Shown piece by piece: positions 37,496 to 58,999 of a stretch of DNA of 59,944 nucleotides. The stretch is taken from positions 1 to 59,944 of the IMG/VR virus record IMGVR_UViG_3300005525_000005. The stretch is one strand, 5' to 3'. The DNA is from a virus. A model generated the notes under the pieces. The model had not been told where the DNA came from. It was given only the letters and a program-made list of their open reading frames with translations, and made no database searches. Made by a program: the position numbers and the translations under genes. Position 1 is the stretch's first letter. Each line of letters begins with the position of its first letter.

Positions 37496-40400
37496 TTATC
37501 TTCCGAATAGCTGATGCATCTGTTGTACCATGCCGCCTTTGGCAAACTTAGTTGGCTTAAGAGCTAGCTCTTTGTATTTTGGCAACAAGTCGTAAGCTTT
37601 GTCTTCTTCCATTGTTCTGCCTTTATGATCTTTGGCATACAACTCGTTAACAATTTTCTTCACTTTAGCTGGCTCACGAAGATATTCTATGCGGTTTAGT
37701 TTTGCTGGAAACTCTTGTGCAAATGTTGCTTCTGTTACTTTTTTAGCTTCTTCAACTGCTTTTTCAATAGCACTATTTATCCGCGCTTGTTTTTGTTCGC
37801 TTGTGAAAGAAGAATAGTCTGAACGCTTAATGGCAGAATCAACAAAGTCAAGGGCATTCTTGTTTACGTTCTGAATGAAGAGCCTGTCAAAGTCTTTGTC
37901 ACCAGTTGGACGACCATATACCTTGTATAGGTCTACGCTGTGCTTGATGATTTCCTTCTCTGCTGCTGTTGGTTCGGTAATCGGACGGAAACCAACAAGA
38001 CGGTTGAAGAACTCGCCTTCCTTCATCGGTGTTTCTTGTTCTTTGAAACGAGTAACGGCAGGAGGTAAAGATTCCTTAACAACAGGCAACTTCGCTTGTA
38101 CACGCTGTACAGCCGCTTCAGCCATGCGACCCGGCATTGTGTCAGCATTCAACACATTAGGATCACGTGCCATGATGGCTTCGTCACCACGAATCAAATC
38201 GAACATGTCGAAGATTTGCTTGGTGACGAACGGCTGAGTGAATCGCCCTAAGAAGTCACCTGAAATTTTACCTAATGATTCAAGAGCCTTTGCACCTTTT
38301 TCATCGCTTTGAAATACTTCTTGAATAGACTGAAGAAAGGTGTGTTGGGTGCCTGCTGGTGCCTTAAATCCAACAATAGATTCCATAATTTCTCTACTAG
38401 GAGCTTGTCCTGTACCGTTGGCAACGTCACGTGCAAACCAATCACCGAGTCCCAAATACTGAGCAATTGGAAAAATAGATTTAACGTCTACTGTCCCAGA
38501 AGGAGTTTTTAGTTCATTCCAATTTGAATCTAAATTATTCTTGCGATAGTCATATGCTGCTGCCAGCATGCCCAAACCAACAGTGGCTTGAATAGCCTTG
38601 GTAGCGCCTTCACGTGCCACCATCTCAGCCTTCTCAAGCTGACCAGCAGCACGAAGCTTTGCAGCTTGTGCAACATACTCGGTAGCACCGACAAAACCCA
38701 ATGGGCTATATTTATATTGGAAAGCAATAGCGTTGGTTACAAAGCGTGGGAACGGAATAAATAGTGACATGGTGGGGAGTTCTGCTCCCTTTACAAAATA
38801 TGCACCAGCCCTCTCAGACAAATCTTCAAATGCAGAAAACGACTTAGCATACATCTGCGGAGAATAAGAAAACGTATCCTTGAATGAATCGTCAAGAGCC
38901 CTCTTCAAAACTGATGTAGGGATGTCCTTGTTCTGAGCTAATACATCTTTATACAAATCAACACCAACACGACGAAGCTCTCTGTCAAGCGATGCAGCAA
39001 ATGATGCGCGGCGATACATGCCATCCATTGCGTTGTTGAGTGTCTGCGACCAACGAGAAAGCTTGTCGAGTGATTGCTCCCAACGAGTATTAGAAACTGC
39101 GTTAAGATCGACATCCGGTGTAGCTGAAGAAATGCGACTGAGCAACGACGGATTGTTCTCCAATACCTTTTCTGTGATGTCTTCAGCAAGACCATTCTTC
39201 CGCATGTAGTAGAAGGTGCCTATAGCGTCCTTGAACGAGTCGCCCATCGTCTGACGTAGGGTGGCTAGCTTCTTACCATCAGCAGCGTCTAGTGCCGTTC
39301 CTACGCTGTAACGGATGCCTTCAAGCATCTGCACACCCGTCTTCATTGAAACACCAATGGTGTTGCCGACGATGTTACGCGCAAGCGTATCGATACCAGA
39401 AGTGATGAGTGCTTTAGATGTTCGCTCAACAGTTCTAACACCTTCACCAAATCTTGTTAGCGCACTAACTTGATTGTTATCAACACCATACAATTCATTC
39501 ATTCGTTTGTCGAAGGCAGGATCAATTTCGCGCATGCGTTTGAGCGCCTTCGCAGCGACAGAATAAGCTTGTAAAATCTGACCAGCTTCAGACGCGGTCG
39601 TCTTCGTCATTGCAGCAAATTGATCTGGTCGCAAGCCAGCTTTGTTAATTGCAGACTCTAATGCTGCGTCATCAATTTTATCTACCTGTGACAATGTCCG
39701 ATTGATGGCATCGCTGACGAGTTCCTTTGCAGGATTAAATCCAAACTGCTCAGGATTGTCCTTCATCAACTGCAAAGCAAAGCGCACAGCCGTCTTGCTG
39801 TAAGCTTCCTGCACTTTGCTGTCTGTTACAGCCGCTGCAGGATCAACTTCATTCAACAAAGCCTTACCATAGGCTTTAACATATTGAGAATGAACAGTTT
39901 CAAAGTCTTTGCTGAGAGCGTTAGAAATAGCCTCTTCGTCTTTTGTCAGAGGTGCCGTAGGATTGGCAGGAGTGATGTTGCGACGAACGAGTTCTTCGCC
40001 AATGATTTCACCACGCTCCTTAATCGTCGGAGCCTTCGTCAGCTTTGCTGACACCGCACCGCTGACAACACCGGGCAATAGCGTTGCCATAGCAGCACCA
40101 GCAGCACTAAACTCTGGCACTTCTTTGCCTTGTTGTCGCGCTGTCTCTTGATCAAGACGCAATTGCGTGGCGTAGCTTGCTCCACCAATGGCAGATTCAG
40201 TGCCAGCAGACACGCCCACTTCAGCCAGTTTAGCTCTTTTACCTAATGCCGTTTTCTGTGCAGCGCGTGTTGTTGCTTCTTCTGCAAGCGATTTAACACC
40301 AGTACGAGCAACAATGCTGGAAGCTGCCTTACCAAAACCAAAACCTAAGTATGTCGATGCGTCAGTGAGAATTGCATAAGCAACATCAAGACCAGCCTTC

Positions 40401-41005
40401 AACTTATTCGGGTTGTCTTCAGCTTCCGAATAAAGCTGACGGAACTGCGCAATCTGATTGGCTTTATCTGCACCAGAGTTTTTAATAGCAATGAGTTCTG
40501 GCACCAATCCAAAGACGTTGTTGTATTCTGTCAGACGTCGATTGGTGTAAGCACGATCAACAAATTGCTTACGTGTCTCTTTAGCTGGATCAAAAGGACG
40601 CTCACCAACAGCCTTCATACCCTTGTTGATGACATCGAGATAGTCATCGCGAGTAATTAGCTCTTGATAGGGAATCTCTAGCGCTTTCTGTTCTTCCTTA
40701 CGAACCTGAATGTTTTGCTGACGTTGCTGTCTGTTCTGTGAAGCAAAGACACCAAAGGCAGCACCACCAGTGCCTTCAACGGGCGCTGTTGTTGACGGTG
40801 CTAGTTCTGTAGATTGCCACCGCTTACGAGCATCGGCAGCTTCTTTACGAATCTTCTCAATGGTGTCTGGAGTGCCACCAACGGGTGTGCCAAACTTTGA
40901 AAAGTCTGGTGTTGAAGAAGGCTCTACAGGCGTACCAAACTTTGAGAAGTCTAGCGCAGAAGAAGACTCAACAGGTGTGCCAAATTTTGAGAAGTCTAGT
41001 GCCAT
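37496..41005 (-). CDS. Giant internal/ejection virion protein with triple N-terminal repeat
   Basis: A 1169-aa protein, the size of T7 gp16-like ejection proteins. It opens with three 15-residue repeats sharing FSKFGTPV (residues 2-46). The bulk is predicted helical with hydrophobic segments such as NIVGNTIGVSMKTGVQMLEG and AIQATVGLGMLAAAYDY, which could insert in the host membrane. The C-terminus is FAKGGMVQQMHQLFGR. No lysozyme or protease motif is seen. Role in DNA ejection is inferred from size, position and lack of a tape-measure gene. Confidence 0.7.
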   Translation of the reverse strand: MALDFSKFGTPVESSSALDFSKFGTPVEPSSTPDFSKFGTPVGGTPDTIEKIRKEAADARKRWQSTELAPSTTAPVEGTGGAAFGVFASQNRQQRQQNIQVRKEEQKALEIPYQELITRDDYLDVINKGMKAVGERPFDPAKETRKQFVDRAYTNRRLTEYNNVFGLVPELIAIKNSGADKANQIAQFRQLYSEAEDNPNKLKAGLDVAYAILTDASTYLGFGFGKAASSIVARTGVKSLAEEATTRAAQKTALGKRAKLAEVGVSAGTESAIGGASYATQLRLDQETARQQGKEVPEFSAAGAAMATLLPGVVSGAVSAKLTKAPTIKERGEIIGEELVRRNITPANPTAPLTKDEEAISNALSKDFETVHSQYVKAYGKALLNEVDPAAAVTDSKVQEAYSKTAVRFALQLMKDNPEQFGFNPAKELVSDAINRTLSQVDKIDDAALESAINKAGLRPDQFAAMTKTTASEAGQILQAYSVAAKALKRMREIDPAFDKRMNELYGVDNNQVSALTRFGEGVRTVERTSKALITSGIDTLARNIVGNTIGVSMKTGVQMLEGIRYSVGTALDAADGKKLATLRQTMGDSFKDAIGTFYYMRKNGLAEDITEKVLENNPSLLSRISSATPDVDLNAVSNTRWEQSLDKLSRWSQTLNNAMDGMYRRASFAASLDRELRRVGVDLYKDVLAQNKDIPTSVLKRALDDSFKDTFSYSPQMYAKSFSAFEDLSERAGAYFVKGAELPTMSLFIPFPRFVTNAIAFQYKYSPLGFVGATEYVAQAAKLRAAGQLEKAEMVAREGATKAIQATVGLGMLAAAYDYRKNNLDSNWNELKTPSGTVDVKSIFPIAQYLGLGDWFARDVANGTGQAPSREIMESIVGFKAPAGTQHTFLQSIQEVFQSDEKGAKALESLGKISGDFLGRFTQPFVTKQIFDMFDLIRGDEAIMARDPNVLNADTMPGRMAEAAVQRVQAKLPVVKESLPPAVTRFKEQETPMKEGEFFNRLVGFRPITEPTAAEKEIIKHSVDLYKVYGRPTGDKDFDRLFIQNVNKNALDFVDSAIKRSDYSSFTSEQKQARINSAIEKAVEEAKKVTEATFAQEFPAKLNRIEYLREPAKVKKIVNELYAKDHKGRTMEEDKAYDLLPKYKELALKPTKFAKGGMVQQMHQLFGR

Positions 41006-43182: not shown

Positions 43183-46100
43183 TTAGCCCTTAAATGGATT
43201 TGAAAAACCTAACCAATCAAGGCCCTTTTCAAGCCAGTTAAGACCTTCTTCAATCGCCTTTTCGCCAGTTTTTGTACCAGCAAGACCAACGAGCAGTTTA
43301 CCCCAAGCACCGCTAGTTTCAGCATCAATGCCTTCACGCTGTACATCAGCCCGCAACAATACTTCAGCAAACGACGCAGCCCTGTCTTCAGCGCGTTCAT
43401 AGCTATCGAACACCATCTTCACTTGATCGCGATAGAGTTGCACTTCGTTATTATATTGCGCCATCGTCATGTTGTTCATGGCTTGTGCGTTAGCGAAGTT
43501 GGCAGCGTTTGTTGCAGCAGTGTTGGCAGTGCTTACCTGCGCCAATAGTTGCGCGTTTGCTTGATCAATTACTGTGCGATTTGTAACGTTAAATTGCTCA
43601 CGTTGCGACTTTAGCTGCGAGTTATATTTCGCCATTGCATTGGCTTCACCAGTATTAAACTGCTCCATCGCATTCTTTTGAGCAGCATTAAACTGTGACA
43701 CCTGAGTGGTGAGCGATGCAGCAAACTGATCAGCCTGTTGCTTATTTGTAGCATTAAACTGCTTCGCTGCATTCTCAGCCGCAGCATCGGACAACGCAAC
43801 CTGTGCAAGCTGCTGCGCCTTGAACAACGCTGTCTTCTGCGTATTATCAAGATTCGCCATGTCCATTGCCAAAAAGGCTTGAGCATTCTGAACAGCAGCT
43901 TGTTGTCGTGCGTTCAGATTTGCCATGTCCATTGTGGCAGTGGCAGCAGCATTAGCAAGCACTACAGCCTGCTGATTGCTCATGTCTTGCAAGTTGATCT
44001 GCTGAATGAACTGCGCGTTTGCTATTGCGTTCTGTTGCTTTGCAGTGAAGTTCACTTGAGCAATTTCAGCAATGCGAGAAGCATTAACAATTGCTGTTTG
44101 CTGCTTGTTGCTGAGTTCTTGTCCCTTTAGAGATGCTTCAATCTGAGCATTGGCAATTGCTGTTTGTTGACGAGTAGACAAGTTTGCCAAATCAACTTGC
44201 AGATTTTCTGCAGAACGAGCAAGCATTGCCTGCTGTGAGTTTGACAGATTGATGTTGTTAACTTCAGCAACACGGGCAGCGTTAACAAGTGCTGCTTGTG
44301 TGCGAACATCAAGATTTTTCTCAGCAGCAGCAGCACGAAACTGTGCATTAGCCAACACTGTTGCCTGTGTATTAGACAGGTTCTGAGACTGCAACGAAAA
44401 CGCATTAGCGCTGTTTTGCAACGCAGCTTGCTGACGAGCATTCAGATTGGCAAGCTCCATCTGTTGAGCATTAGCAGCGTTAGCCAACGCCACTTGTTGA
44501 CGATTGTTTAGGTTCGTCAACTCCATCTGAGTGAATGTTTGCGCATCAGCAGCAGCAAGCGGTGTAACAGCCTCCATAGCCGCTTGAACAATGGCAGCAC
44601 CTGCCATACTGCTGCCACCAAGACCACGCGCTGCCATAATGGCATTTGCGTTCCTCATGGCACCAGCAGCCCATGCAGGAGTGCCGTCATTGAAATCAGC
44701 CATGTACTTCTCAAGCTGATTACGGACAGTCATTTCAGCTTGTACACGCCCCTGTTGTGCTTCGGCTTGTCCAATAAACAAATTGCCTTGAGCAGCTAGC
44801 GCAACAGCATCGCTATTGAGCTTATCCATTGTTGCTGCAACAGCCTGCACTGTTTCCATTTGCAGCTTTTGCTTATCAACATCGATAAGCTCTCCAGTAG
44901 TTACGTCACGTGTTTTTGCTTCAATTTGAGACTGATATGTAGACTGTTCAGCTTTGGCAGTAGGAGCGCCACCGACATCGGCAACAGTAGCTGCCTTAGC
45001 AAGCATCTCCGGTGTTTGTGCTAACGGCTCAACAGCAGATACTTCTGCAGCTTTAGCAGGCGCAACAGCTTTAGCGATAGCTCCTTCTGACAAAGTGCCT
45101 GTTTGAGCTACGGCTTTAGCACCTTCTGACAATGTGCCTTTTTCTGCAGTGAGCTTGTTCATCTGCTCTTGCACAGTGGGCATTGCTGTAGCGGCTTCGT
45201 AGGTTTGACCAGCAGCGACTTCTCCAGCTTTTGCCTGCTCTGCCTCTGCTGTTTTCGTCAGATCGGCTGTAGGCGCAGCACCGAGTTGATAGTCAGGCTT
45301 TGTAGGATCAAGCTTCAACCCATCTGTAGAGGTTTGTGCCGCTGTCACTTTCTGCGTTGCTCCAGCAATGGGAACACCTGTCGCTGAATATTCCATAGGT
45401 GACGTAGGCGCTGAAGCAGGCGCTGGCGTTGGTGTTGGTGTTGGAGACGGAGACGGAGCTGGAGCGGGCGGTGCCGGTGTAGGCGCTGGTGGAGCAGCAA
45501 CAGGAGCAGGAGTTACAGGCGTAATTGTAGTTGTACGCGGAGGACCAGAGGGTGCTGGTGTAGGAGATGGAGCAGGCGTTGGAGCCGGTGCAGGCGCTGA
45601 TGACGTACTATTCCAAGATATAGCTGGTGGAGCAGATGCACCAGAAGCCACCTCATATCCATTCTGACGCATCCAAGATATTACATCATCACTAACGCCA
45701 ACAGTTTTAAGCCACTCAGGAGTAATGTTGTTCTTGTTGTAAAAATCTATCTTTTTTTGTGCGCCTTCTGGACCCGTCCACGAATCCCACTCAGGCGGAA
45801 GCATTTTTTGTAAAGCCTGCTTTTTATCATATACATATTTTTCATTATATGCATTTTCATATGCAGCAAACTGTTGATGTGACTGAGGCCCATATTTTGC
45901 TTCAATTTGTTTGCGTATCGTATCTGCACTAAAAGTCTGACCTGAGAAACCTTCACGATACTTAATATATTCTGAAGCAATGTTTGTGTCGAAGTTTGTA
46001 GAAACATCACCACCAGTTTGATACTTACGAACAACACCACCCTTTGCCATATACTTATCAGCAACCATGCCATACTTCATCTGCAAAGCAGGAGAGCTTT

Positions 46101-46188
46101 GAAGAAACTCATCAAAGCCCTGCATAGGGCCTTCGTAGCCAAGCTTACGAGCTACGATTTCTTTTTGCTTTGCAGTGAATTTACTCAT
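43183..46188 (-). CDS. Internal virion protein with long 22/11-residue helical repeats
   Basis: A 1001-aa protein. The N-terminal domain carries MAKGGVVRKYQTGGDV (about residues 47-62). A Pro/Ala-rich, low-complexity linker spans about 195-275. From about residue 553 to 790 about eleven 22-residue repeats (pattern NLNARQQAALQNA) follow each other, then at least six 11-residue repeats centred on QFN to about 880. The 11-residue period indicates a hendecad, slightly right-handed coiled coil. A C-terminal helix ends GLNWLEKGLDWLGFSNPF, amphipathic. It is a good candidate for a channel or rod in the ejection apparatus. Confidence 0.75.
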   Translation of the reverse strand: MSKFTAKQKEIVARKLGYEGPMQGFDEFLQSSPALQMKYGMVADKYMAKGGVVRKYQTGGDVSTNFDTNIASEYIKYREGFSGQTFSADTIRKQIEAKYGPQSHQQFAAYENAYNEKYVYDKKQALQKMLPPEWDSWTGPEGAQKKIDFYNKNNITPEWLKTVGVSDDVISWMRQNGYEVASGASAPPAISWNSTSSAPAPAPTPAPSPTPAPSGPPRTTTITPVTPAPVAAPPAPTPAPPAPAPSPSPTPTPTPAPASAPTSPMEYSATGVPIAGATQKVTAAQTSTDGLKLDPTKPDYQLGAAPTADLTKTAEAEQAKAGEVAAGQTYEAATAMPTVQEQMNKLTAEKGTLSEGAKAVAQTGTLSEGAIAKAVAPAKAAEVSAVEPLAQTPEMLAKAATVADVGGAPTAKAEQSTYQSQIEAKTRDVTTGELIDVDKQKLQMETVQAVAATMDKLNSDAVALAAQGNLFIGQAEAQQGRVQAEMTVRNQLEKYMADFNDGTPAWAAGAMRNANAIMAARGLGGSSMAGAAIVQAAMEAVTPLAAADAQTFTQMELTNLNNRQQVALANAANAQQMELANLNARQQAALQNSANAFSLQSQNLSNTQATVLANAQFRAAAAEKNLDVRTQAALVNAARVAEVNNINLSNSQQAMLARSAENLQVDLANLSTRQQTAIANAQIEASLKGQELSNKQQTAIVNASRIAEIAQVNFTAKQQNAIANAQFIQQINLQDMSNQQAVVLANAAATATMDMANLNARQQAAVQNAQAFLAMDMANLDNTQKTALFKAQQLAQVALSDAAAENAAKQFNATNKQQADQFAASLTTQVSQFNAAQKNAMEQFNTGEANAMAKYNSQLKSQREQFNVTNRTVIDQANAQLLAQVSTANTAATNAANFANAQAMNNMTMAQYNNEVQLYRDQVKMVFDSYERAEDRAASFAEVLLRADVQREGIDAETSGAWGKLLVGLAGTKTGEKAIEEGLNWLEKGLDWLGFSNPFKG
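43545..44532 (-). repeat. Tandem repeats coding for 22- and 11-residue helical units
   Basis: Degenerate 66-bp and 33-bp periodic coding sequence within the 1001-aa gene. The consensus unit contains ARQQxAxxNA; the DNA copies are diverged, so the array is old. Confidence 0.85.
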
Positions 46189-48647: not shown

Positions 48648-50771
48648 TTAGGCTTCGAGAGCGGCCACACGGGCGCGGAGGTCGGTGATGAGGGCTTGCT
48701 GTTCTTGGATGAGTTTGAGCATTGGGGTAATAAGGTGTGTGTAATTAACACCCCGCAATGTACCGCCTTGCTCTGCATCATCGTAAAAACACAAATCAGG
48801 GTTAACAACCTCTACATCTTCGGCAATTAATCCGTGTTTAAGCGGGCCGTCTGCTTGCTCGGTGTAATTACCTTCTGCATCCTTTTTGCGAAAATTGAAG
48901 GTGACCGGGTTCAGGCGCAAAAGCCATTCAACATTTGATACGGGCGCGATGTTAGTTTTGCTGGCACGGACGGACGAAACGTAGCCGATCTCACCTATGT
49001 TATCGACAAATAGATCGCGATTGGTTGCCCCAACCGTGTAGTTATAAGGCGATGCTGCCGCCGTTCCTGACCTCCATCGTCCGTCGTTCTGAACCGCAAG
49101 CAACAATGCGTTACTGCTGTTTTCAAAGAACATGCAGTAGTTAGAGCCAGTGCTATCAACACCTTTAACATCAAGTCTTGCGCCAGAGGTGGTACTCGTC
49201 GTCCCCACCAGCAAATCCCCCCCGCTGGTGATGCGGGCGCGTTCGGTGTTGTTGGTGTAGAAAAGAAGCGGGTCGTTGCTGGCAACTTGAATGGCCGGGT
49301 CTACCCCTGCGCCTACACCAGAACGAATGTAAAGATCGCCGCCTCCCGACTCTTTAACGAATACGTAGCCGTTTTGTACATTTAGCTTGGCACCTTCAGT
49401 ATTACTCGTCGTCCCCACCAGCAAATTCCCACTAGCATCCAGCGTCATCGCCTGCGTGAAGCTGATCGCGTTACCTGCGGTGCCGGAGGGGGCGGTGAAC
49501 CAGCGATGTGCGCCGCCCCCTTGGTCGTAATACGAAGCTGCGGCTGTAATCTTGTATGTATTGGTTCCGCCTGTTGCAACAAAGGTGTTGTTGTAAAGGC
49601 GTGTGTTGGCGCTTTGCGCGTCAACCAAAGAGGCTGTGGAACCAATATCAAGCGCACGGTCACCAGACCGCCACGCACTCGGCGGCACCCCCAAGCCGAG
49701 GTTGCCGGAGGAGTTGAGGGTCATTTGCGTCGTTGTATTAGTACCAAACAACAGCGCATTGGTTGAATGGCTGTACGACAAGTACCCTTGCGTAGAGTTT
49801 GTGGCGTTTCCAAAATACAACTCTGAGTTGCCTGCACCACCCGCAGAAACAGACGACAAAACTTGCACAGAGGCGTTGGCGTTGCCAAAACCAGCAAACA
49901 AATTCCCACTACCGCGAATGTTTCCAACGACATCAAGTTTTTGCGTAGGCGAACTCGTCCCAATCCCCACATTGCCCGCCACTGCAAGGCCGTTCGTGCC
50001 GATACCCGCGTATGAGGAATACCCAATCAGTTGAGATTGCTTGACTTCCAGACCTGTGGAGGTCAGGCGCATTTGTTCGGTGTTGTTAATGCTAAAATAC
50101 AAAGGCGTGTTTGTCAGATTACGCAACCCTGTTTGAGTGCTCTCCGTGGAAATACGAAAATAGTCTGTTCCATTAAGATTAAAATAAGCGTTAGAAACAC
50201 CGCCAGTAGTGTTTGTCCGCACTCTAAAGTTTGCTTGATCGCTGCTTGCTGACGCATCAAACAAGAGATTATTCGTCCCATCAAACGTCAGCGCACTCCC
50301 GCTCGTCGCCACCTTGCTGCCGTTGAGGTACAGGACGCCGTTGGCGGTGCCCGCGTTCAGCGTCACCGTTGACGATGTTGTCAGCGCCGTAAACGTACCT
50401 GCACCAGCGCTAGCACCGCCGATAGTGACACCGTCAATAGTGCCAGCATTGATGTCAGCAGTGTCAGCAACAAGGCTGTCAATGTTGGCTGTGCCGTCAA
50501 TGAATAGGTCTTTATACTCCAGCGTAGAGCTACCCAGATCAACAGTGTTATCCGTCTTAGGCGTCAACGCTGACGCGCTGGCTACAACATCCTGTGTAGG
50601 CCCAATCTTAGTGATGGGAGCGCCTTCAGTAGAAGTGCCGTCATGCGTATGCCCTGTGCTTGCATTAAACGCTGCTTCAATGGCGTTATATTCATTGTCA
50701 AAGTCTGAAGCATTGATGACGTTGCCATCAGCAATGTTGTTTGTTGTGTCTTGCCTAATATAGCCAGCCAT
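48648..50771 (-). CDS. Tail spike/fiber with S74 intramolecular chaperone
   Basis: A 707-aa receptor-binding fiber. The N-terminal region (about 1-75) has GHTHDGTSTEGAP, a trimerising or attachment motif typical of tail fibers. The middle is repetitive beta structure with several NLGLG/GNVGIGTSSPTQKLDV units. The C-terminal Peptidase_S74 chaperone starts with SSVRASKTNI, holding the Ser and Lys of the self-cleavage site, and ends in a coiled coil (QALITDLRARVAALEA). It will be auto-cleaved during trimer folding. Determines host range. Confidence 0.9.
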   Translation of the reverse strand: MAGYIRQDTTNNIADGNVINASDFDNEYNAIEAAFNASTGHTHDGTSTEGAPITKIGPTQDVVASASALTPKTDNTVDLGSSTLEYKDLFIDGTANIDSLVADTADINAGTIDGVTIGGASAGAGTFTALTTSSTVTLNAGTANGVLYLNGSKVATSGSALTFDGTNNLLFDASASSDQANFRVRTNTTGGVSNAYFNLNGTDYFRISTESTQTGLRNLTNTPLYFSINNTEQMRLTSTGLEVKQSQLIGYSSYAGIGTNGLAVAGNVGIGTSSPTQKLDVVGNIRGSGNLFAGFGNANASVQVLSSVSAGGAGNSELYFGNATNSTQGYLSYSHSTNALLFGTNTTTQMTLNSSGNLGLGVPPSAWRSGDRALDIGSTASLVDAQSANTRLYNNTFVATGGTNTYKITAAASYYDQGGGAHRWFTAPSGTAGNAISFTQAMTLDASGNLLVGTTSNTEGAKLNVQNGYVFVKESGGGDLYIRSGVGAGVDPAIQVASNDPLLFYTNNTERARITSGGDLLVGTTSTTSGARLDVKGVDSTGSNYCMFFENSSNALLLAVQNDGRWRSGTAAASPYNYTVGATNRDLFVDNIGEIGYVSSVRASKTNIAPVSNVEWLLRLNPVTFNFRKKDAEGNYTEQADGPLKHGLIAEDVEVVNPDLCFYDDAEQGGTLRGVNYTHLITPMLKLIQEQQALITDLRARVAALEA

Positions 50772-52738: not shown

Positions 52739-53461
52739 TTAGGCTGTTCTCGGTCCAGAAGTAAACATAGCTCCTTGCGGAATATATGTTGAAGTGATGT
52801 ATTCGTACTTGTTAATGAGAACAGTTCGCATTCTCTTCAAGCCTTCGTCAAACTTTCCTTTAGCAATGTTGGCAGCTTGTTCATTGCTTCTGAACATGTA
52901 TGCGTGATATTTAGCACCATCAAGAACAACATACTTGTAGCGCTCAGGAACAAAAGGAACATCTGTAGCATTAATAAGGTCTACAGGAATACGATAGTAT
53001 TCATAGACAAGCTCGTAGTCTTCTTTCGGAGGAGGAATAACAATATATTGATCGCTCGGTGCTTGACATACTTTTGTTGGCACGTTGAGCCTGCTACTAT
53101 CCGACGAATACTCTAAGTCTACATAGTGCTTCAGATAGTCATCATAGGTAATAACTTCAAGACGCACCGTGTCGTTACCGAATGTGATGTCTTCTTTGAT
53201 TCGGAAGCTATCAAAATCAATCTTCGAAGCATCTGACGGGAAAGCGTAGCGGCTAACACCATCGGACAAGATGTCAGTTTGTTCTACGTGATTGAAAGGC
53301 CATTCCTGCCCTGCTTGATTGATGTCACGCAAAGCATTGTTGACAGCGTCTTTAGCGTGAGCGTAAAAGCCTTTGGAGGTAAGAAAATTGGCAGACGTCA
53401 ACTCCACCTCGTTCAAAGAACGAAGCAGAGCGTTAGTGAGTTCAAGGTAGTTGTATGCCAT
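52739..53461 (-). CDS. Tail tubular protein A (adaptor, T7 gp11-like)
   Basis: A 240-aa head-tail adaptor. The opening (NYLELTNALLRSLNEVELTS) and the middle FPSDASKIDFDSFRI are typical of podovirus gatekeeper/adaptor proteins. Immediately upstream of the nozzle gene with no gap. It joins the portal to the nozzle. Confidence 0.9.
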   Translation of the reverse strand: MAYNYLELTNALLRSLNEVELTSANFLTSKGFYAHAKDAVNNALRDINQAGQEWPFNHVEQTDILSDGVSRYAFPSDASKIDFDSFRIKEDITFGNDTVRLEVITYDDYLKHYVDLEYSSDSSRLNVPTKVCQAPSDQYIVIPPPKEDYELVYEYYRIPVDLINATDVPFVPERYKYVVLDGAKYHAYMFRSNEQAANIAKGKFDEGLKRMRTVLINKYEYITSTYIPQGAMFTSGPRTA

Positions 53462-53462
53462 A

Positions 53463-53783
53463 TCATTGCTCCTTAATGCGAAGCTTTATGGTGCGCTCTG
53501 CAATGGACCCGCTGCTGTCAGTGATGCGACAATGGAGTTTATATTCGGTGTTGTTGGTGCCGAGCGCTAAATTGATAGTGGCGATGGTGCTGGTTTGCGT
53601 AACAGCAACATTCTGGAGCCCATTGACAACACCTCCTGCCGTAAACGCTGTCTTCACTCCCGCAGAGTCATCGACAAACCAATTGACAACACTAATGGTG
53701 ACACCGTCGCCTAGCCAGCGTGACCAATCGACACTGTAGTCGAGTTGTTCATCCTTGTCCTTATTAGGCCACCGATACGACAT
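53463..53783 (-). CDS. Phage fiber-tail adaptor-like protein
   Basis: A 106-aa protein whose start (SYRWPNKDKDEQLDYSVDWS) matches the phage fiber-tail adaptor pattern, followed by an Ig-like beta domain ending in TIKLRIKEQ. It lies between the giant tail protein and tubular protein A, where an attachment role for fibers makes sense. Confidence 0.75.
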   Translation of the reverse strand: MSYRWPNKDKDEQLDYSVDWSRWLGDGVTISVVNWFVDDSAGVKTAFTAGGVVNGLQNVAVTQTSTIATINLALGTNNTEYKLHCRITDSSGSIAERTIKLRIKEQ

Positions 53784-53792
53784 ATTGCATTC

Positions 53793-56633
53793 CTATATAT
53801 TTACTGTACGTTCTTTGCTTGTTGTACCACGACTTACGTACACTTGTCTAACATCTCTTGCCACAACAACTTTTCGATCAATTGCTGCTGGCTTTGGTTC
53901 AATATACACCATTCTAGGCTGAACCTCGACATAGACATATCTAGCAATTGTAGGCGTTTTTGCTTCGACGTAAACAACTCTGTTTCTATCGAAGCTATTC
54001 TTTACAGCTTCAAAATCAAACGCAGTGGTGTTGACAACAACAGTGCCAATACTCGTTGTCAGCTCAAGTCCGGAGACAACAACAACTTCATTCTCAAGAA
54101 CAACAACACTGCCAATTTCTGTTGTTGCTTCAACACCGACAACGCTTACATTAGCGTCTGCAACAATAGAGAGAACACCAACAGACGCTATAGCTGCAAC
54201 ACCGGCAGGTTCTGCGTTAGCATCAGCCGTAACAGTGACAGCGCCAACAGCGCTTGTCATTGCCTCAGACTGAGGTCTATGCGTTACGCTGCAGCTACCA
54301 TAGATGGCTTGTCCAAAGATGCCAACACCATAGCAAGCACCGCTGTAGGTTGTTGGTGATGTAGCTGCAAAGGTGTCTGCACCAGCCTCTGATACCGACA
54401 ACGCACCCTGCACCAGCACATCACCAGAAACACCTTGGGGCTGTGCAACATAGTTGTCGTTGACATATCCGCTGTCAACGTAGTCAACAAGAACGACACC
54501 AAAGACATCAGGCTGCTCTGTGACGGCAAAGGTGCCAGTAATGGGTAAGAAGCCAGCAGCAGCGAAAGTGTCAGAGCCTGTTTCAAGCGCTGTCAGAGCA
54601 CCTTCAACCAACACCGTGCCAGAAGCAGCAAAGACATCGCTGCCTGTCTCTGACACTGCCAGAGCGCCGCTAACAATGACATCACCAGTAGCAGCAAAGA
54701 CGTCAGCACCAGATTCTGATACTGCCAACGCACCCTGTACCAGCACGTTGCCAACAGCGGCAAAGGTGTCATTAGCTTCTGTTGCTGCAAAGCTGCCTGA
54801 GACAATGACATCGCCGCTGGCAGCAAATACATCAGCGCCTGTTTCAGACGCTGCCAGAGCGCCTTCGATCAATACTGCGCCACTAGCAGCAAAGACATCT
54901 GCGCCAGTTTCTACAGCAGCAAATACACCAGAGGTGAAGACATTACCGCTAGCAGCAAAGACATCAGAGCCTGTTTCAGACGCTGACAACGCTCCCTGCA
55001 CCAGCACATCACCAATAGCAGCGAAGGTGTCGTTAGCTTCTGTTGCTGCCAGCGCACCCTGCACCAACACTGTGCCAGATGCGGCAAAGGTGTCAGAGCC
55101 TGTTTCTGTAGCTGCTAAATTGCCTTCAACAAGAACAGTGCCGCTAGCAGCGAAAGTGTCGCTGCCAACTTCTGTTGCAGCCAATGCGCCTGTAGCTTGA
55201 CCAACACCAGCAGCAAAGAAAACATCAGAGCCCGTTTCAGTGACAGCAAAGCTGCCAGAAACAATGACGTCACCAGTAGCAGCAAACGTGTCAGCACCAG
55301 CTTCTGTAGCTGCTAACGATCCTGTGACAGTGGAGAAGGCTACAGTACCTGTGGCGGCAAAGACGTCAGAGCCTGTCTCAGACGCTGCCAACGCACCTTG
55401 CACCAGCACATCGCCAGTAGCTGCAAAGGTGTCTGCGCCTGTTTCTGTTGCTGCCAGCGTACCGCGAACAAATACATCACCAGTGGCTGCGAACGTGTCT
55501 GCACCAGACTCTGTAGCAGCGAGTGTGCCTCTGACGATGACATCGCCTGTTGCAGCAAATGTGTCTGCACCAGTTTCAGATGCTGCTAAAGACCCTCTGA
55601 CAATGACGTCGCCAGTAGCTGCAAATGTGTCGGAGCCTGTCTCAGACGCTGCTAGAGAGCCTTTGACAATGACATCGCCAGTGGATGTGAACGTGTCTGC
55701 GCCAGCTTCTGTAGCTGCTAAAGAGCCGGAGATGGCAGAGGCTGAAACAGTGCCAGTGGCGGCGAATGTGTCAGAGCCTGTTTCAGACGCTGCCAGAGAG
55801 CCTTTGACAATGACATCGCCAGTGGCGGCGAATGTGTCAGAGCCCGCCTCAGACACAGCGAAGGTGCCAGTGCGCGTAGGCAGTGCGCCCTCGCGCACGC
55901 GCAGCAGAACAATCGGGCCACGGACGTTGGTGACCGTGCCACCCGCCGTAACAGTGACGGTCGGGGCCGTTGTGCTTGACCCCGCAGTGACCGCAGCCCA
56001 CGCGCTGTAGCCACCAATGTCAAACCCGGTTCCGCTGTCAGGCTCGTTGAGTTCCGTAGCAGCGCCAAACGTAGCACCCGTGGCCGTAACAGAAGGCGCA
56101 GAGAATTGACCCGGCGTACTGACATCAGTCGGGATACACATCGCCCAGATGGCGCGGTCCCCAGTCTGAAAATTGGTTGCGCTCGTCCCGTTCGTGAGCG
56201 CAGTTGCGAACGCGACGTTGACTGTCGGTGCGGTGGTGCGTTGACCGTCAGCCGAACCAAACTCAGCCGCCCCAGCCCCCTTGGGGATGCGGACCATGAA
56301 GGCCCAACTGATGTCGTTGCCAGCTAGCGTGACAGCGAGGTTGCCTGTCTGGCCTGCAACAGGTGTGTTCCACGAATAGACGCGGAGGTTGGTGTTGCCG
56401 GTGTCCGCGCCAATCGTTGTGCCGTAGCCACCCGCTGCCAACAGTTCCTCGCGCAGCGTCCAACCCGTGGGGGTCGTGACTGTGCCGCCGTTGGCTGCGG
56501 TGGGCTTCTGGCCGACAAACAACAGAACAACGTCGGTGGCAAGAATGCCTGCCGGATACGCCGGAGAGACTGTGGTGCCGCCCGCTGTTGCGTTGTATGC
56601 GGCTGCTGCGGCAACTGGGGTTCCAAGCGCCAT
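53793..56633 (-). CDS. Giant tail protein with about 22 tandem 22-residue repeats
   Basis: A 946-aa virion protein. An N-terminal domain of about 250 residues, GC-rich, is followed by about 22 consecutive units of GSLAASETGSDTFAATGDVI type (22 residues, positions about 253-750). Then comes a non-repeat joint with YVDSGYVNDNYV, more Ig-like beta segments and a C-terminal stretch of VYVE-type repeats (YVEAKTP, YVEVQP, YIEPKP). Such repeats usually form long beta fibers exposed on the virion. It is next to the fiber-adaptor gene. Confidence 0.75.
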   Translation of the reverse strand: MALGTPVAAAAAYNATAGGTTVSPAYPAGILATDVVLLFVGQKPTAANGGTVTTPTGWTLREELLAAGGYGTTIGADTGNTNLRVYSWNTPVAGQTGNLAVTLAGNDISWAFMVRIPKGAGAAEFGSADGQRTTAPTVNVAFATALTNGTSATNFQTGDRAIWAMCIPTDVSTPGQFSAPSVTATGATFGAATELNEPDSGTGFDIGGYSAWAAVTAGSSTTAPTVTVTAGGTVTNVRGPIVLLRVREGALPTRTGTFAVSEAGSDTFAATGDVIVKGSLAASETGSDTFAATGTVSASAISGSLAATEAGADTFTSTGDVIVKGSLAASETGSDTFAATGDVIVRGSLAASETGADTFAATGDVIVRGTLAATESGADTFAATGDVFVRGTLAATETGADTFAATGDVLVQGALAASETGSDVFAATGTVAFSTVTGSLAATEAGADTFAATGDVIVSGSFAVTETGSDVFFAAGVGQATGALAATEVGSDTFAASGTVLVEGNLAATETGSDTFAASGTVLVQGALAATEANDTFAAIGDVLVQGALSASETGSDVFAASGNVFTSGVFAAVETGADVFAASGAVLIEGALAASETGADVFAASGDVIVSGSFAATEANDTFAAVGNVLVQGALAVSESGADVFAATGDVIVSGALAVSETGSDVFAASGTVLVEGALTALETGSDTFAAAGFLPITGTFAVTEQPDVFGVVLVDYVDSGYVNDNYVAQPQGVSGDVLVQGALSVSEAGADTFAATSPTTYSGACYGVGIFGQAIYGSCSVTHRPQSEAMTSAVGAVTVTADANAEPAGVAAIASVGVLSIVADANVSVVGVEATTEIGSVVVLENEVVVVSGLELTTSIGTVVVNTTAFDFEAVKNSFDRNRVVYVEAKTPTIARYVYVEVQPRMVYIEPKPAAIDRKVVVARDVRQVYVSRGTTSKERTVNI
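54378..55870 (-). repeat. Tandem 66-bp repeat array in the giant tail gene
   Basis: About 22 copies of a 66-bp unit, several of them highly alike and in frame (examples start at 55860, 55800, 55740 on the minus strand). Copy number may change by recombination without frameshift, altering fiber length. Confidence 0.88.
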
Positions 56634-57263: not shown

Positions 57264-57647
57264 TTAAGCAGCATGCGTAATCGTGGCAGAAGTGATGGTG
57301 ACAGTTTGACCAGCAGTGATGGAAGTGCTGTCAAGGTTGATGTCGCTGCCGCTGGTGCCAACAGTGAGTCCAGTGACAATATCGACGTTGTTGCTGTCAC
57401 GAATACGCGCAGCAGCAGCAGTGCCGGTATTATCAGCAGATGTGTCAGAGCGCGGGAATCCGCTGAACGTCAACACACCACTCGCCGCAGCAGCAGCAGA
57501 CGGATCAGCCAGCGTAATCGTCGCCAGCACAGATGCCATGCCAGTAGTACCAATCTCAAGCTTACCAGCACCAGAGCCAGCATCAATCTGAGCAGTGACA
57601 GCATCCAAACGAGCATTCTTCACCGCAGTTGTGTAAGTGACAGCCAT
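57264..57647 (-). CDS. Small beta-rich virion protein
   Basis: A 127-aa Ala/Thr/Ser-rich protein (TTAVKNARLDAVTAQIDAGS) with repeating beta-strand pattern. It resembles head-decoration or minor structural proteins common in phages with this gene order. Function unknown. Confidence 0.68.
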   Translation of the reverse strand: MAVTYTTAVKNARLDAVTAQIDAGSGAGKLEIGTTGMASVLATITLADPSAAAAASGVLTFSGFPRSDTSADNTGTAAAARIRDSNNVDIVTGLTVGTSGSDINLDSTSITAGQTVTITSATITHAA

Positions 57648-57661
57648 ATTAAAACACCTCT

Positions 57662-58081
57662 TCAGTTAATGCGAACAATCGCATTCGTTCCGGTAGCAGC
57701 AGGAAACACCACCGTAAAATCACCACTGGTGGAAGTTTTGTCTCCACCGAAATCAATAGCAGCAATGGCTCTATTGCTCTTGCTGCTGTTATAAATTAGC
57801 GCACCTCTGGCAGTGATGGTGGCACTACCCCACGTTGTATCACTAAAGTCAACAATGGCAACACTGCCATCTAAAGAAATAACAGCACCACTCAACGTGT
57901 TACCACCAGCAGTGTATCCTGCACCAACCACTTCATTACTGGTGGTGTATGCTGTAGTGCTGGCACCCAATGTTGCAGCGCTGGTATAGAGCGCAAGCTT
58001 GATTACATCAGTATCTAAGTCGTGAATGCCACCAAGCAATTCTTGCTTAAAGCTATTGCAAACCGCTGATGTAATTGCCAT
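57662..58081 (-). CDS. Small virion protein
   Basis: A 139-aa protein beginning with NSFKQELLGGIHDLDTDVIK followed by LALYTSAATLG, a pattern common to short phage structural proteins that often sit beside the previous family. Likely a head-surface or fiber protein. No terminator follows; the next gene is 14 bases away. Confidence 0.72.
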   Translation of the reverse strand: MAITSAVCNSFKQELLGGIHDLDTDVIKLALYTSAATLGASTTAYTTSNEVVGAGYTAGGNTLSGAVISLDGSVAIVDFSDTTWGSATITARGALIYNSSKSNRAIAAIDFGGDKTSTSGDFTVVFPAATGTNAIVRIN

Positions 58082-58145: not shown

Positions 58146-58553
58146 TTAAGCCAGAGTGTCGCGATCAACAGAACCGGGAGCAGCCCAATCCTTATTGACA
58201 TCAACAACAATAGCGAACACTCGACCAGCGATCACACCGGGAGAACCAGAGATGGTGGTCACAACGTCGATGGTGTCGTTAGCAGCAACTACACCAGCCG
58301 TAGTACCGATCTTGATGGTGTTAGCAGCGGTGTTGTCGAAGCTAATGTCGTTAGCAAACACGGTGGTGCCATCGGTGATGTCCATCGTATACGTGGTGAT
58401 ATCAGGCACCGTAGTGTAGTTTTGGAAACCGACAGCAAGCACCAGAGTGCCAGCGCCGACAGGGATGCCTACAGCGGTACCGGAAGTGGCGGCAAGCGAC
58501 ACATCCTTTTCCACAACATAGGCGCGATTACGAAGAGATTGAACAGCAGCCAT
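58146..58553 (-). CDS. Putative head-decoration protein
   Basis: A 135-aa beta-rich protein (SLRNRAYVVEKDVSLAATSG) immediately following the capsid and endonuclease genes and preceding a strong terminator. Size, composition and place fit a capsid decoration or stabilising protein. No specific family recognised. Confidence 0.65.
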   Translation of the reverse strand: MAAVQSLRNRAYVVEKDVSLAATSGTAVGIPVGAGTLVLAVGFQNYTTVPDITTYTMDITDGTTVFANDISFDNTAANTIKIGTTAGVVAANDTIDVVTTISGSPGVIAGRVFAIVVDVNKDWAAPGSVDRDTLA

Positions 58554-58999
58554 TATTTTTCCTTTGAAGAGTTAATATATTCTATTGCCGATTGCAGAAG
58601 GTTAACATCGTCGTTTAAGTAGCCGATACCGAAATTACATTTGGCACAGAGAAGTCCACGAACTTTTTGAGTATCATGGCAGTGATCGATAAACAATTTT
58701 CCGCTTTCAATTCTTTCAGAATTTGGAGAATCGGATTTGCAAATCGCACACTTTCCTTCTTGTTCATCAAGCATCTCATAATATTGTTCAGCAGTAATCC
58801 CGTAGGTACGAACAATAAATGCTTTCCACTTGATATGTTCTCGACAAGGTTTGCATTGTGCCCGTAAGGAAACACCACCCCTTGCTTTTTCGTCTCGTTC
58901 TAATTGAAACTCAGATGCTAGCTTAAAAACACCACAGACATTACACTCTCTACCATCTTTATAAGGATGGTCTTCGCGTAGTATCAGTGGTGTCTTCAT
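58553..58999 (-). CDS. Endonuclease VII-like HNH nuclease
   Basis: A 148-aa protein of the recombination endonuclease VII type. A first zinc knuckle (CNVCG, CKPCR), then CAICKS and the core FIDHCHDTQKVRGLLCAKCN with GIGYLNDDVNLLQSAIEYI are the family signature. Clearly AT-richer than the capsid and decoration-like genes on either side. The family can resolve junctions or branched DNA before packaging, but this placement inside the capsid transcript suggests a mobile homing copy. Confidence 0.92.
   Translation of the reverse strand: MKTPLILREDHPYKDGRECNVCGVFKLASEFQLERDEKARGGVSLRAQCKPCREHIKWKAFIVRTYGITAEQYYEMLDEQEGKCAICKSDSPNSERIESGKLFIDHCHDTQKVRGLLCAKCNFGIGYLNDDVNLLQSAIEYINSSKEK

Follow-up and report, generated by a model that had tools for sequence, protein, structure and literature searches.

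An old array of 22-residue repeats in a putative virion surface protein of an HMO-2011-type podovirus, with other arrays behind the same domain in relatives

The stretch of viral DNA analysed here (IMG/VR record IMGVR_UViG_3300005525_000005, 59,944 nucleotides, hereafter the window) encodes on its minus strand a 946-residue protein, P0001, in which a conserved N-terminal domain (N-domain) is followed by an array of roughly 22-residue repeats (R1) and a C-terminal region (Table 1). The array has 22 units, counted by their D[TV]F anchors (residues 265–752, 0-based; window 54345–55871); a 23rd match to that pattern, at residue 385, was discarded because it sits inside GDVFVRG. Over residues 255–765 the identity at a lag of 22 residues is 0.474, a value that none of 2,000 shuffles reached (maximum 0.16). 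G2, E8, G10, D12, F14 and G18 are invariant in the 18 full units, and positions 4, 6, 16, 20 and 22 are hydrophobic in 94–100% of them. A preliminary description, made from the letters of the window, had reported about 22 copies of a 22-residue unit, two of them one residue shorter (EANDTF) and two with a short insertion. All of this holds, with the unit that it quoted located at 55533–55598 and the insertions being three residues long and lying between units, but a third odd unit, TEQPDVF, was missed, as was the YVDSGYVNDNYV segment at 54447–54482. It had also spoken of a giant tail protein; at 946 aa the protein is not giant, and its assignment to the tail is putative. In the array region TRF, which is DNA-based, reports only 55408–55727 and 55365–55838, because the DNA copies have diverged.

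Table 1 Features of P0001 and of the genes around it (window coordinates).
Feature	Position	Strand	Remarks
P0001, 946-aa mosaic virion-type protein	53793..56633	-	open frame and translation; identical in L002 and L003
N-domain, conserved, predicted beta-rich, residues 1-250	55884..56633	-	52 non-redundant ORFs; block pLDDT 78-96
R1 array, 22 units of ~22 residues, GxLAAxETGxDTFAATGDVIV	54345..55871	-	
Short unit EANDTF, 21 residues	54999..55061	-	
Short unit EANDTF, 21 residues	54738..54800	-	
Insertion between R1 units, 3 residues	55731..55739	-	unit spacing 25
Insertion between R1 units, 3 residues	55326..55334	-	unit spacing 25
YVDSGYVNDNYV segment near array end, before last R1 unit	54447..54482	-	motif type also behind relatives' R1, R2, R3, R4 arrays
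C-terminal region carrying GVxATxxxGxV repeats; resembles small proteins of CRP-345, CRP-603 and CRP-207 (Roseobacter phages)	53793..54353	-	
FDFEAVKN segment, common to CRP-345 gp55 (62.5% over 16)	53973..54020	-	
Companion gene, 202 aa	56644..57252	-	homologue directly upstream of N-domain gene in 25/46 ORFs
Virion structural protein, phrog_3758	57264..57647	-	
phrog_644 protein	57662..58081	-	
GP4 gp77-type fiber-tail adaptor, next gene downstream	53463..53783	-	Pfam PF23148 E 2.9e-15; PDB 8jou_D E 2.8e-5
SU10-type adaptor	52739..53461	-	Pfam PF24175 E 1.9e-21

The capsid protein of the window is 69.0% identical to that of HMO-2011, and its adaptor is 39.4% identical to that of HMO-2011 and 35–52% to those of the CRP phages compared; with the same gene order in the regions compared, capsid upstream of adaptor, the virus is of the HMO-2011 podovirus type. 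An Endonuclease VII-type gene (58553–58999, minus strand) separates the capsid gene from the small structural genes. In Pfam P0001 matches nothing above the cut-off (two matches lie below it), and it has no NCBIfam match and no sequence match in the PDB, so its probable place on the virion is read from gene position. A collar and a fibril of GP4 are described in PMC13243795. In 25 of 46 ORFs, the copy in the window included, the N-domain gene is preceded at 1–13 bases by a homologue of the companion gene, and these ORFs carry R1, R2, R3 or R4 arrays; no homologue was detected in the other 21, of which 20 have more than 750 bases of upstream sequence (the 46 are the ORFs without a flag for being cut by a contig end, and include one fragment of 124 aa, L117). 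Several loci have phrog_3758 or phrog_644 proteins near the N-domain gene, and in four (L113, L079, L095 and L098) other capsid, portal or connector families adjoin it. On plasmid p1 of Caenibius sp. WL, which also has a phage capsid gene of the N4-gp56 family, an R1 array stands directly upstream of a gp4-family adaptor gene.

Stretches of residues 766–946 of P0001 share 31%, 30% and 26% identity with CRP-345 gp55, CRP-603 gp57 and CRP-207 gp50, proteins of HMO-2011-type Roseobacter phages (E of 4e-4, 2e-9 and 5e-4 in a set of 16 proteins), with an FxFEAxKNxYSRxRT-like ending. Like P0001, the CRP proteins are encoded just upstream of a gp77 homologue, in CRP-345 with a 37-aa gene between; unlike P0001, they have neither an N-domain nor an R1 array. 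In its loose form, a YVxxGYV-kind motif is found a single time, towards the end of the protein, in 21 of the 46 ORFs, versus 4 of the 981 other distinct ORFs at the same loci; the strict form is found in 20 of 46 versus 2 of 981, each form being searched with one pattern in both groups. Motifs of this YV-x2-GYV type stand behind R1, R2, R3 and R4 arrays, in L011 with shorter spacing, and our guess is that they might act as a cap closing the array.

That P0001 is a head fiber or a capsid decoration, and not a part of the tail or collar, would agree with a gene that comes after the capsid gene and small structural genes, with the filing of phrog_3758 under head and packaging, and with locus L095, in which scaffolding and major head genes come after the N-domain gene. 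We consider it unlikely, given that the next two genes downstream encode the gp77-type fiber-tail adaptor and the SU10-type adaptor, and that the C-terminal relatives in the CRP phages are encoded immediately before the gp77 homologue or with one small gene in between. A fiber of reversed orientation, anchored by its lineage-specific C-terminus and exposing the widely shared N-domain as its binding tip, has similarly poor odds. The C-terminal segment is indeed common to CRP phage proteins that have no N-domain, and the N-domain is found near other capsid and portal families, but the companion directly upstream of the N-domain is what would be expected if this domain binds a virion partner, and phage fibers are usually anchored by their N-terminus.

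The preliminary description had taken part of the array for a near-identical subset and thus for a recent expansion, which the DNA does not bear out. Adjacent units in 55401–55730 share 68–79% DNA identity and differ at 2/10, 7/14, 10/12 and 11/15 four-fold sites, a low figure in just one of the four neighbour pairs. Across the array silent sites are almost saturated: neighbours differ at 0.545 of their four-fold sites and units more than 10 apart at 0.588 (0.531–0.588 over five distance classes), where random same-box codons would give 0.61. No two R1 units share more than 81% of their DNA, and near-identical DNA copies, the mark of a recently expanded variable-number repeat, were thus not seen; a 31-bp exact repeat joins units 1–2 with units 3–4. 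The units are alike as protein and not as DNA, so the unit has been preserved at the protein level as its DNA drifted apart. Judged by its silent sites, the array is old and bears no sign of a recent burst, which corrects the tempting inference that protein-identical repeats mean recent expansion.

Comparison with related genomes bears out part of the earlier proposal that units are gained and lost in frame. Between some diverged relatives whole units differ: L060 and L012 have 13 and 11 units with two gaps of exactly 22 residues, and one 22-residue gap, beside smaller differences, separates L007 from L008 (9 and 8 units) and L054 from L056 (12 and 11). The lengths of L029/L031, L045/L050 (one of the two cut by a contig end) and window/L004 differ in less regular pieces, and the aligned pairs L004/L006, L014/L023 and L054/L111 have no gap of at least 5 residues. 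Within the same virus, contigs L002 and L003 carry an array 100% identical to that of the window (three assemblies, which may not be independent). Changes in unit number may alter fiber length and perhaps receptor reach. A simple length-tunable fiber, with the copy number of one repeat as its main variable and fast slippage or unequal recombination as its motor, would account for the whole-unit differences and for the 31-bp repeat as a trace of local duplication or conversion; it is less probable still than the two readings above, with units this close to silent-site saturation, no more similar pair than 81%, one and the same array in three contigs and three pairs of relatives without length difference. 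An array produced by faulty assembly or by translation in a wrong frame is very improbable: repeats may be collapsed or expanded in short-read assemblies, but this array lies in a single open frame of 946 codons, is held letter for letter by two further contigs (unless these share one assembly) and has units diverged enough for reads to distinguish.

The N-domain, that is the first 250 residues, is common to 52 non-redundant ORFs, obtained from 106 hits that included many re-fetched copies and L002, the window's own copy. The searches, with the protein (63 loci) and with an N-domain alignment (64 loci) as query, overlapped. Mean column identity is 70% over 38 aligned sequences. At E up to 1 nothing in the phage collection matched the N-domain, and the two matches of its profile in the PDB (E 0.23 and 0.69) were taken as chance. 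A pattern search of genome contigs gave 89 stretches, one of which codes for a relative, of the array. Against Pfam at E up to 0.01, 39 relatives matched six families, each in one member (best Lipocalin_4, 1.8e-4). In L033 two N-domain proteins of 1536 and 597 aa lie back to back in one contig (388–4995 and 5001–6791).

Behind this domain stand arrays of different families. The repeat models class 49 tails as R1 (14), R2 (20; LTPALYTNTNTFYxPTV), R3 (3; AGSFSYTGQ), R4 (1), R5 (2), R6 (1) or none of these (8), with R7 behind R2 in two tails and R8 behind R1 in one. The best period is 20–25 in all 41 classed tails and exactly 22 in 22 of them. Kinship among the arrays was assessed by comparing profiles in 21 pairs, each set against 60 controls with permuted columns. 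The real score exceeded every control for R1–R4, R1–R5 and R3–R5, and few controls reached it for R3–R7 (1/60), R1–R7 (2/60), R4–R5 (2/60) and R1–R6 (5/60); for R2 against the six other families 7 to 41 of 60 controls reached it. The test is a weak one, with only 6–8 units for R4, R5 and R6, at most 60 units per family and a fixed 22-residue cut that fits the variable spacing of R2 poorly. By these scores R1, R3, R4 and R5 could be distantly related, and R2 looked separate from the other families. The minor tail protein family phrog_8501 matches the R2 array of L045 (residues 275–354) and not its N-domain; it is matched by 9 of the 39 members of set A1 and not by the protein of the window.

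Modular phage fibers are well known, and exchange is usually pictured as the swapping of tips; here it is the repeated middle that is replaced, behind a conserved domain, by other repeats of near-equal period. On a tree of 50 N-domains (two ORFs under 200 aa left out) the array class changes 17 times, versus a minimum of 8 and a mean of 26.7 with shuffled labels, none of 200 shuffles having as few changes as the real tree; the classes therefore cluster but switch often. Tree labels were set by eye for L118 (R3), L033_385 and L116 (R6), L024 (R1) and the 'none' and 'lectin' groups; the repeat models give no class for L118, L033_385 and L116, and L024 is too short. The closest N-domains to that of the window, in L060 (94%) and L012 (92%), group with it on the tree and have R2 and then R7 arrays behind them. 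The DNA of the window and L060 is 91.6% identical over 57228–55885, up to residue 250, and there is no blastn hit of at least 80 columns downstream of that residue.

Among eight pairs compared for divergence at the junction, window/L060 has its opposite in two pairs with nearly identical arrays behind diverged N-domains. Four-fold differences fall from 0.19–0.43 in the N-domain to 0.03–0.14 in the tail in L004/L006 and from 0.09–0.28 to 0.00–0.13 in L014/L023, so that the exchange boundary is visible in silent-site divergence in these two pairs. The drop is blurred in L054/L111 and was not seen in L012/L060, L009/L021, window/L004 or L007/L008. More strikingly than in unit number, this family appears to vary by exchange of its entire array, whole-unit gain and loss being the slower process. 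A different array behind the same domain is the bigger source of variation, and one that is invisible from one window. Among the fetched stretches, the N-domain occurs together with HMO-2011-type capsid and adaptor genes only in contigs of the window's own virus (for loci with three or more gene matches, within the fetched flanks), and exchange between lineages is therefore deduced from fragments.

AF2 models the N-domain as confident and beta-rich (block pLDDT 78–96) and the array as short strands of moderate confidence (37–85); that of the R2 array has low confidence (mean pLDDT 54). With VIA-align the array model, at this moderate confidence, aligns to beta-helices, best to the ice-adhesion-type protein 3p4g (Z 19.1, rmsd 3.5, 280 aligned) and also to the adhesin EtpA (18.6), the P560 depolymerase (15.3) and the 9NA tailspike (14.9). 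Foldseek found no match of the model in the PDB at E 0.001 or better; its 14 matches at that level among viral models, mostly unnamed, were left out of the reasoning. According to PMC11795689, AF2 over-predicts beta-solenoids for perfect repeats. The units of the window are diverged, which makes this worry smaller, though still present. On this model the array would be a rigid, beta-solenoid-like stalk.

We read P0001, also in view of its gene neighbourhood, as a modular protein on the virion surface of an HMO-2011-type podovirus, most probably a fiber or an appendage of the collar, and give this a probability of about 0.6. It would have three parts: a conserved 250-residue N-terminal beta domain, found next to other capsid families too; a stalk of beta repeats of about 22 residues, here of the R1 family; and a C-terminal region, partly after the YV-x2-GYV-type motif, that resembles short proteins which cultured relatives encode just upstream of their collar adaptor, gp77. 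The stalk would vary in whole units and, as a block, give way to arrays of other families with an almost equal period. In such a protein the array would probably space a binding domain from the particle, and its exchange would change how the phage meets its host. A wider proposal, which we hold only tentatively, is that several phage lineages share one adaptor system, an N-domain often with its companion, onto which stalks that differ in sequence but have a common geometry, with about 22 residues to each beta coil and a YV-x2-GYV-type cap, are exchanged as cassettes, the stalk and not the tip being interchangeable. If the arrays share a fold, nature would offer in them a range of interchangeable stalks, with which one could ask what stalk sequence contributes to host contact in uncultured phages.

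PMC5601072 describes antireceptors of Streptococcus thermophilus phages with distinct host-recognition domains that are in some cases separated by repeats, as here; those repeats are collagen-like, whereas the P0001 unit has 22 residues and its part in receptor binding is putative. The glycines that never vary in this unit (positions 2, 10 and 18 of 22) form no triplet, so a collagen-like Gly-X-Y repeat is not present. Literature searches listed nothing on point, and we do not claim the feature as unpublished.

Other repeats and length differences lie elsewhere in the window. A 1001-aa protein (43183–46188, minus strand) has a hidden 22-residue period (lag-22 identity 0.169, shuffle maximum 0.108) and no PHROG match at E 0.001; its repeat is A/N/Q-rich and helix-like, probably helical, and it was rejected as a relative of the array. 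Contig L003, otherwise identical over the 11 kb aligned, has no counterpart to 78 bases of the tail-fiber gene at 48648–50771 (49343–49420, 26 codons), an in-frame indel that is natural or from assembly. A 45-bp tandem repeat of 2.8 copies (40879–41002) lies in the 1169-aa ORF at 37496–41005.
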